This document shows, in pieces, positions 6,907-30,781 of a stretch of 64,000 nucleotides of DNA; within the stretch, counting starts at the first letter, position 1, and each line of letters begins with the position of its first letter. The translations under genes were made by a program, and so were the position numbers. The stretch is taken from positions 1 through 64,000 of the forward strand of contig CANRIX010000003.1 in assembly GCA_947630765.1 (NCBI GenBank), read 5' to 3'. The notes beneath the pieces were generated by a model that made no database searches, was not told the DNA's origin, and saw only the letters and a list, made by a program, of their open reading frames with translations. Origin of the DNA: an uncultured Clostridia bacterium (lineage in GTDB: Bacteria > Bacillota > Clostridia > Oscillospirales > CAG-382).

Positions 6907-8370
6907 ATGAATTACCGCATGGTCGGATACCTGCTGGGTATCATCCTCTTTATCGAAGCGGCGCTGCTGGCCGTGCCGATGCTGACGGCATGGATCTACG
7001 GGGAGACGCTGCTGCCGTTCCTGTTCGCGGCGCTGCTGCTGCTGCTCGCGGCGATCCCGGCGCTGTTCTGCAAGCCGACGGAGAACCGCATCTACGCGAA
7101 GGAAGGGTTCGTCGTCGTTGGCGCGGCGTGGCTGCTGCTTTCGGCGTTCGGGGCGCTGCCGTTCGTGTTTTCCGGCGCGATCCCCCACTATATCGACGCG
7201 TTCTTTGAAACCGTTTCCGGCTTTACGACGACCGGGGCGACCGTTCTGACCGAGATCGAATCCCTGCCGAGAGGGATCCTGCTCTGGCGGAGCTTTACGC
7301 ACTGGATCGGCGGCATGGGCGTGCTGGTGTTCATGCTCGCGATCCTGCCGTCCGCCGGCGGACAGGCGATCCACCTGCTGCGCGCGGAAACCACCGGGCC
7401 GACCAAGGGCAAGCTGGTCCCGAAGCTGCGGCATACGGCGCTGATCCTCTACGCGCTCTACTTCGCGCTGACCGTCCTGCAAACGGTGCTCCTGCTGCTC
7501 GCGGGACTGCCGCTGTTCGACGCGGTCACGACGGCGTTCGGCACGGCGGGGACCGGCGGATTTTCCGTCCGCAACGCCTCCATCGCCGCCTACAACAACC
7601 CGGCGGCGGAATGGATCGTCGCGACCTTCATGCTGCTGTTCGGCGTGAACTTCAACATCTACTTCCTGCTCCTGCTGCGCCGGGTCCGAACCGTCCTGCG
7701 CAACGCGGAACTGCGGGTGTACCTGCTGATCGCCGGGACGGCGACGCTGCTCGTCGCGCTCAACACCGCGCGTCTTTTCCAAGGCGTCGAGCCCTGCCTG
7801 CGCACGGCGTTCTTCCAGGTCACGACCATCATGTCCACGACCGGCTTCGTCACGACCGATTACAACCTCTGGCCGGACCTTTCTAAGACCATTCTCGTCA
7901 CGCTGATGATCATCGGCGGGTGCGCCGGTTCGACGGCGGGCGGTCTGAAGGTCTCGCGGGTGATGCTGATCGTCAAGAATATGGCGCGGGAGGTCAAGCA
8001 CATCATCAAGCCCCGCTCGGTCAACGTCGTCAAGCAGGACGGCGACGCCGTTTCGGTGGATACGCTGCACCACGTCAGCAACTACGTCACCATCTACGTT
8101 TTCATCATCATCGTCACGACGCTTCTGCTGTCCATCGACGGCTTCGGGCTGGAAACCAACCTGACCGCGACCCTCGCCTGCATCAACAACATCGGACCGG
8201 GACTGGGCATGGTCGGCCCGGTCGGCAATTTCGCCGCGTTCTCGTACGTTTCCAAGATCCTCCTGTCGCTCAATATGCTCATCGGGCGTTTAGAGATCCT
8301 GCCGCTGCTGATCTTCTTCACCCCGGCGACGTGGAATTTCAAGGGCTTCCGCCGCCTGCACAAAGCCTGA
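6907..8370 (+). CDS. trkH: TrkH/KtrB-type potassium transporter
   Basis: 'FFETVSGFTTTGATVL...WRSFTHWIGGMGVLVF...TAFGTAGTGGFS...GGCAGSTAGGLK' filter motifs. Confidence 0.96.
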   Translation: MNYRMVGYLLGIILFIEAALLAVPMLTAWIYGETLLPFLFAALLLLLAAIPALFCKPTENRIYAKEGFVVVGAAWLLLSAFGALPFVFSGAIPHYIDAFFETVSGFTTTGATVLTEIESLPRGILLWRSFTHWIGGMGVLVFMLAILPSAGGQAIHLLRAETTGPTKGKLVPKLRHTALILYALYFALTVLQTVLLLLAGLPLFDAVTTAFGTAGTGGFSVRNASIAAYNNPAAEWIVATFMLLFGVNFNIYFLLLLRRVRTVLRNAELRVYLLIAGTATLLVALNTARLFQGVEPCLRTAFFQVTTIMSTTGFVTTDYNLWPDLSKTILVTLMIIGGCAGSTAGGLKVSRVMLIVKNMAREVKHIIKPRSVNVVKQDGDAVSVDTLHHVSNYVTIYVFIIIVTTLLLSIDGFGLETNLTATLACINNIGPGLGMVGPVGNFAAFSYVSKILLSLNMLIGRLEILPLLIFFTPATWNFKGFRRLHKA

Positions 8371-8436
8371 AAAATGCGGAATATCCGGCAAATTCTGTCG
8401 GGTTGCCCGTCTATCGAACGTCAAATGGGGGCAGGC

Positions 8437-8626
8437 ATACAATAAAAATCGTTTCGGAGGCGGACATGCGCCGACTCCGAAACTCCTCAAGAGAAAAATG
8501 GCGATGGCGGCGTCAGAAGTGGCGCAAGCCGAGCCATTTTTCGACGAAAGGGGAGTATTCGGGGGGAAAACGCAGAGCAAGGCGACGCGTAGCGGAGACG
8601 ACGTGATTGTGGTTCCCACCCGAAAA
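8437..8626 (+). repeat. dispersed structured intergenic element, copy 1
   Basis: Strongly similar to 30175-30381; 5' 'ATACAATAAAAAT', conserved GGCGGACATGCGCC loop and 'GCGTCAGAA[G/T]TGGCGCAAGCCGAGCC', 3' 'CACCCGAAAA'. Confidence 0.9.
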
Positions 8627-8629
8627 CTA

Positions 8630-30119: not shown

Positions 30120-30154
30120 GGACGGCATGAATCGCTCATGCCGTCCTTTCGTTT
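30120..30154. terminator. Rho-independent terminator
   Basis: Perfect 11-bp stem GGACGGCATGA/TCATGCCGTCC then TTTCGTTT. Confidence 0.9.
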
Positions 30155-30174
30155 GTCAAAAATTCCAAAGAGAA

Positions 30175-30381
30175 ATACAATAAAAATATCGCCCCGTAGG
30201 CGGACATGCGCCGCCGAAGGGGCACCTTAAGAGAAAACCGGCGAAGGCGGCGTCAGAATTGGCGCAAGCCGAGCCGATTTTCGACGAAAGGGGGGGTAAT
30301 TCGGGGGGAAAACACAGAGCAAGGAGGAGCTGCGACAAAGTCGCTAGCGACGCCGCCGTGATTGTGTTTGCCACCCGAAAA
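30175..30381 (+). repeat. dispersed structured intergenic element, copy 2
   Basis: Similar to 8437-8626 end to end; overlaps the 3' end of the DUF1284 CDS. Confidence 0.9.
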
Positions 30382-30781
30382 GCATACGCGTTTCCCAGCG
30401 GCTTTTTCCCGTGCAGAGCGATTCCCACTGACACCCGCCGCAGACGGACGGACGCTTCCCCGGCGAAAGGACGCGCTCCTGCACCCGCCGGACGAAATCG
30501 CCGAACGGCAAAACCGCATCCTCCCGCAAACCGCACAACGCCAACACGGCGCGGTCATATCCCGCGACCTTCTCCGCCTGTGCGCACACGCCGCCGACGT
30601 TATTCGGGCAGGCGGAACAGACGCAGTCCGTCCCGACGGTCAGCGTCACCGGCGTTTCCGCCGTCAGGACGTCCAGCAGTTCCGCCATGTGGCGGGAAAA
30701 CCCGTCGCTGTACCCGTGCCCCGCAAAGTACGCGAGGCACATCCCGTGGTGCGGCCGCAGCCGCAAACCTTCACCGCACAT
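30344..30781 (-). CDS. DUF1284 family protein (Cys-rich)
   Basis: 'LRLRPHHGMCLAYFAGHGYSDGFSRHM...CPNNVGGVC...CGGCQWESLC'; overlaps the bioY stop. Confidence 0.85.
   Translation of the reverse strand: MCGEGLRLRPHHGMCLAYFAGHGYSDGFSRHMAELLDVLTAETPVTLTVGTDCVCSACPNNVGGVCAQAEKVAGYDRAVLALCGLREDAVLPFGDFVRRVQERVLSPGKRPSVCGGCQWESLCTGKSRWETRMLFGWQTQSRRRR

Follow-up and report, generated by a model that had tools for sequence, protein, structure and literature searches.

A folded, modular and mobile intergenic repeat family in Clostridia, probably of the MITE/BOX-like type

Two intergenic segments of the window (the whole analysed stretch of 64,000 nucleotides) belong to a repeat family with ~65 copies in a 2.1 Mb Clostridia MAG, and we consider it probable that this is a non-coding, non-autonomous mobile family of MITE/BOX-like character, in which the folded + strand is selected. 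The initial annotation had recognised the two segments and their paired stems; beyond that, the element proved to be mobile, located at gene 3' ends by terminators, and modular, with modules swapped between copies.

Anatomy and distribution of the family

Re-reading of 8437-8626 and 30175-30381 confirmed the architecture that had been described as common to them, including the stems and loops. The two segments are real, but the element extends ~25 nt beyond the left end given earlier, to GTYTRTCRAA, which is weakly conserved, and a third hairpin, P3, missing from the earlier description, is present in both copies. The features are as follows.

8378..8402, + strand: intrinsic-terminator remnant of the TrkH-like gene, which lies upstream of copy 1 and ends at 8370
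8409..8628, + strand: copy 1, complete, running from the 5' extension GTCTATCGAA, which is weakly conserved, through CACCCGAAAA, by alignment of the copies with their 5' flanks
8451..8483, + strand: copy 1, hairpin P1 (GTTTCGGAGGCGGACATGCGCCGACTCCGAAAC), by covariance-model R1 match and covariation
8493..8542, + strand: copy 1, hairpin P2, core GGCGTCAG-NAN-TGGCGCAAGCC, by covariation
8558..8624, + strand: copy 1, hairpin P3 (TTCGGGGGG...CCACCCGAA), whose internal loop is AGAGCAA/GCGATTG and whose tip varies
30120..30146, + strand: hairpin of an intrinsic terminator (GGACGGCATG...CATGCCGTCC, followed by TTTCGT), which borders copy 2 on its left side and is kept in G014
30151..30383, + strand: copy 2, whole element, from GTTTGTCAAAAATTCC through CACCCGAAAA
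30191..30223, + strand: copy 2, hairpin P1 (GCCCCGTAGGCGGACATGCGCCGCCGAAGGGGC), by covariance-model match
30233..30282, + strand: copy 2, hairpin P2
30300..30379, + strand: copy 2, hairpin P3

The outer stem of P1 is GTTTCGGA/TCCGAAAC in copy 1 and GCCCC/GGGGC in copy 2; the second stem, GAAAAATGGC/GCCATTTTTC and GAAAACCGGC/GCCGATTTTC, respectively, has a loop common to both, GGCGTCAGAA[G/T]TGGCGCAAGCCGA. The P1 cap GGCGGACATGCGCC, also common to both window copies and formerly called invariant, is conserved but only near-invariant, as GGCGGGCATGTACC and GGCGGACATGAGCC are also found. Relative to shuffles, the two window segments fold with z values of -7.0 and -6.3; for copy 1, folding is poorer on the reverse strand (z -4.0). 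The element length is ~190-430 bp across carriers, and no ORF was seen in its interior.

Only these two copies lie within the window, and the family is much larger genome-wide. In line with the initial reading, the host genome (G000) contains many further copies: a DNA search gave at least 42 matches (40 of 81 candidates scored), the core pattern gave 63 real copies balanced between the strands (1 for the reversed-pattern control), and covariance model R1 (P1+P2) gave 66 matches. R1 also had 41 matches in G001 and 31 in G014, both rabbit-gut MAGs of the same genus, and zero in 20 other same-genus genomes or in sampled relatives. Exact matches to the core pattern came from the rabbit-gut MAGs Lapin-032 bin93 and Lapin-012 bin103 (probably G001 and G014) and Lapin-026 bin80 (G060), the last with ~33 copies that are diverged and longer. 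A scan of 397 genomes of the order found at least 8 distant copies in G087, which belongs to another family and has an identical P1 cap, and one copy with recognisable P1 in G182; all carriers other than the window genome are incomplete MAGs. A weak match in G333 is not full-element-like and was set aside as probably due to chance, and exact core matches in Paenibacillus, Burkholderiaceae and Acidobacteria (n=3), with unrelated surroundings, were likewise taken as chance. The viral collection searched gave no match. The earlier impression that the element belongs to no recognised family held as well, with no match to any Rfam family (HEARO, group II intron, OLE and others) at the gathering threshold and E <= 10, and none to an IS end.

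Structural constraint and modular variation

Strong covariation over many copies supports the initial proposal that an RNA/DNA structure is under selection and that the copies are not a decaying duplication. Among 29 diverse copies, 93.4% of cells are paired, compared with 37-49% when the partners are slid, double changes occur at 12 pairs, and the covariation score is 0.238 (0.099 when shuffled). Across the 79 aligned copies, each of the five outer P1 pairs is always formed when neither letter is missing, and most of these pairs vary among two or three Watson-Crick types; in P2, one pair is U·G in 79/79. P2 is more stable on the + strand in 126/126 copies (mean -29.4 versus -21.1 kcal/mol on the - strand) and P3 in 101/118, and the non-consensus pairs include 40 G·U but 16 A·C. 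The asymmetry of P2 and P3, the fixed U·G pair and the excess of G·U together mark the + strand as the constrained one; the folded + strand is under selection, as RNA or as single-stranded DNA.

The copies differ in their hairpin content, since some of them carry extra hairpins at fixed positions, namely, in the P1 tip (GCTCCAAACAC..GTGTTTGGAGC), between P2 and P3 (GACGTGCCGAC..GTCGGCACGTC), and in P3 both at its base (GCTATTCAAAGCGGC..GCCGCTTTGAATGAG) and in its tip. Where the window genome and G001/G014 have orthologous sites, flank identity is mostly 85-97%, and the element identity averages 0.89 versus 0.864 (sd 0.03) for random pairs; it is also patchy by hairpin (P1 1.0, P2 0.92 and P3 0.82 between C2:104618 and L092). 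Because element identity is barely above that of random pairs and patchy by hairpin, we infer that ectopic gene conversion may occur among the copies.

Several further variants were noted. In the P3 tip of L064:66 and L093:1073, a small hairpin (GACGAAGTC or GACGCAGTCGCAC) stands in tandem 3-4 times, a possible slippage hotspot. G060 copies (L170-L199, L233-L252) contain a large additional branched domain, together with a segment, AATCCCACCACCGCGC..GCGCGGTCCCCCTCCCTTTGACAAGGGAGG, that is also a separate repeat in flanking DNA; several contigs stop inside it, and the G060 elements appear to be nested, with a repeat inside a repeat. A 5' variant, AACGCGAAGCGTTTACAAT, is found in window genome copies such as C5:28791, C14:19583 and C16:35029 after apparent 3'-end remnants of another element, which suggests former head-to-tail tandems; a stretch similar to it, CGCGAAGCG, is present at the 5' end in G087.

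Mobility, insertion address and candidate partners

The family is mobile, since close species differ in which sites are occupied. G001 and G014 lack copy 1 at the orthologous site, and the TrkH-like gene upstream of it has an unbroken terminator there (GGAATATCCGGCAAAAAACGTCGGATATTCCTTTTTTT), 3' half and T-run included; in the window, this terminator has lost its second half, and the element comes next. Copy 2 is absent from its site in G014, and G001 has other DNA at that position. The empty sites of both window copies are not clean, in that local sequence is also lost or altered. For C10:20944, the corresponding site in L111 has no element and immediately follows a terminator. A DUF1284-like gene (assigned by eye; reading frame 30344-30781, - strand), convergent with copy 2, runs into the element; with the insertion it lost its stop codon, a TGA in G014, and its C terminus is now extended by ~15 codons read from the element.

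Copies usually settle between a gene end and its intrinsic terminator. According to gene orientations from a dicodon-model gene caller, 52/62 copies of the window genome and 45/58 copies of the relatives (97/120 in total) have a convergent gene on their right, and in most of these cases its stop codon adjoins the 3' end of the element. A hairpin is present in the left flank of 51/99 copies versus the right flank of 24/99; in G060 and G087, 15/31 left flanks and 10/15 right flanks have one within 50 nt, compared with 17% of control windows.

In several copies, the terminator hairpin is itself contained in flanking direct repeats. These measure 36 bp at C12:76973 of the window genome (CGCAAAGAACGGAACGATTTTCACCGTTCCGTTCCC), 29 bp at L173, 24 bp at L179 and, as judged by eye, ~32 bp at L196 and L237; L195 has 20 bp exact within ~39 imperfect, again with the terminator hairpin inside, and L267 and L273 (G087) have ~35 bp imperfect hairpins as flanking repeats. 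The longest common flank substring has a control mean of 6.8, on which the comparison rests, because the control maximum of 29 may arise when the shuffle returns a copy's own flank; in the own-lineage set, shuffled flank pairs never exceed 11. Most own-lineage copies have no flanking duplication above control, and the search for short target duplications in that set gave one strong case only. As for terminal inverted repeats, a weak pair, TGTCGAAAAAG / TGTCGATAAAG, occurs in G060-type copies only (TGTCGA...TCGACA), and clear ones were not seen in the window clade.

Searches of the carriers for Y1 transposase, reverse transcriptase, TnpB and rve gave no partner that has matching ends or is present in all carriers. 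Y1 transposase seemed carrier-associated (G000, G014 and G060; absent from 5 non-carriers), but none is encoded in G001, and an IS200/IS605-derived origin was rejected because the ends of the Y1 elements in those three genomes are unrelated to the family. The TnpB domain is below cut-off in every carrier, and the family does not qualify as omegaRNA. Reverse transcriptase (retron, DGR, group II intron) was discarded as a partner, RVT_1 being found in the window genome only and absent from the other three carriers, and the rve matches, IS3-, IS30- and IS481-like by eye, lack TGT...ACA ends and do not extend to G060. The window genome has two DGR-like RVT_1 genes in prophage-like contexts (G000:C1:237834 and C2:53223; L230, L231). 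It also has an IS200/IS605-type Y1 transposase gene that seems interrupted by another insertion (G000:C24:77-322 and C15:54831-54968; L227, L228).

Alternative explanations and relation to known systems

A non-autonomous mobile family would be served by a hypothetical trans-acting enzyme that recognises the folded + strand, with P1 as the conserved handle; P1 is proposed for this role because it is the part common to the distant family, its cap being identical in G087. Insertion would take place at terminators, perhaps during extrusion of the terminator palindrome, and a palindrome extruded on insertion would yield a duplication that spans the hairpin. Ectopic gene conversion would then reshuffle the hairpin modules while the paired stems are retained. 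That the family represents a new class of bacterial mobile element is quite unlikely; in such a class, the element's own folded transcript or single strand would steer insertion to intrinsic terminators, the extruded hairpin would be recognised and wholly duplicated, and the P1 ACATG hairpin would be a cross-family signature.

The copies might instead be trans-acting or antisense small RNA genes, transcribed from the 5' end into an RNA with a host role, e.g., on convergent-gene 3' ends, with dispersal being secondary. RNA-like covariation, + strand preference, conserved loops, the orientation of the element 3' end toward the 3' end of the convergent gene, and a -10-like hexamer just upstream of P1 (TACAAT here, TATAAT in G060) would all fit; however, the distance from hexamer to P1 is inconsistent between clades (~9 nt here, ~3 nt in G060) and no conserved -35 box is present, and the promoter reading of TACAAT was dropped for these reasons. 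In addition, the element 3' end is without a terminator, and absence from 20 same-genus genomes argues against a core host function, making small RNA genes an unlikely explanation. SINE-like retrotransposition, with the folded RNA copied by a reverse transcriptase in trans, could account for RNA-like structure without an ORF and for long direct repeats of variable length (24-36 bp), but it is very unlikely given that RVT_1 is confined to the two DGR-like genes of the window genome and that no poly-A-like or 5'-truncated copies were characterised.

Through its - strand, the element could serve the adjoining gene as a sense-strand 3'UTR or terminator element, considering that a copy usually follows a gene's stop codon directly, antisense to the gene, and that a T-rich stretch follows P1 on this strand. 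The - strand folds worse, however (P2 is better in 0/126 copies), and its A·C mismatch is fixed; the T-run and the stem do not adjoin, and the sites are empty in close relatives, all of which renders this highly improbable. Neutral decay of duplicates, with apparent covariation produced by copied ready-made stems, has almost negligible probability: module swapping moves paired stems together and so reduces the number of independent compensatory events, but there are many fully paired stem types with near-fixed loops in three species, the covariation far exceeds that of slid and shuffled controls, and the same P1 is kept in the distant family.

Considered as a non-autonomous mobile family, the repeats have counterparts in several known systems. 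BOX elements of Streptococcus pneumoniae are small, ORF-less, high-copy intergenic repeats of composite modular build and extensive RNA-like fold, for which a trans mobiliser is not known (PMC3049150). The likeness is one of modular design (boxA-boxB-boxC in BOX); unlike in BOX, hairpin modules here are inserted into hairpins, and the site is between stop codon and intrinsic terminator. The bcr1 repeats of the Bacillus cereus group are ~150 bp long, lineage specific and folded, with dozens of copies and mobile-element traits (cited in PMC2267715). By description rather than by sequence, the two families are alike in size class, copy number, lineage restriction, fold and mobility. The bcr1 target duplication is short (TTTAT), in contrast to the 24-36 bp hairpin-containing repeats of the present family.

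Bacterial MITEs (PMC10969869) are likewise non-autonomous and ORF-less, with flanking duplications, of which clear long ones accompany a minority of copies here, and probable mobilisation in trans; the present element is short, has 30-66 copies per genome and no transposase ORF, and differs from MITEs in its strong structural selection on one strand, no parent IS having been found. The long-duplication group of the IS1202 family has target duplications of 16-28 bp, outer ends 5'-TGT...ACA-3' and a TnsB-like transposase (PMC10132070), and the long duplications of the present family and the TGTCGA...TCGACA ends of its G060-type copies resemble it. Unlike in that group, no TnsB-like transposase was seen here, and rve is without a match in G060. 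Group IIC introns are structured RNA elements beside intrinsic terminators; group II introns are not known to leave long duplications, and the present family is without an Rfam match or an ORF. In the way it works, the family is like BOX/bcr1-type structured MITEs, with no identified sequence or enzyme in common.

BOX and bcr1-type repeats have been known for decades, and their mobiliser and a clear reason for their folds are still lacking. The family described here is favourable for solving such repeats, as it offers close species with empty and filled sites and a recognisable insertion address, the gene end beside an intrinsic terminator. Its hairpin-containing duplications constrain the insertion chemistry, and its natural module swaps separate the variable from the essential parts of the element. 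In the carrier genomes, dozens of gene 3' ends have been remodelled by this one element.
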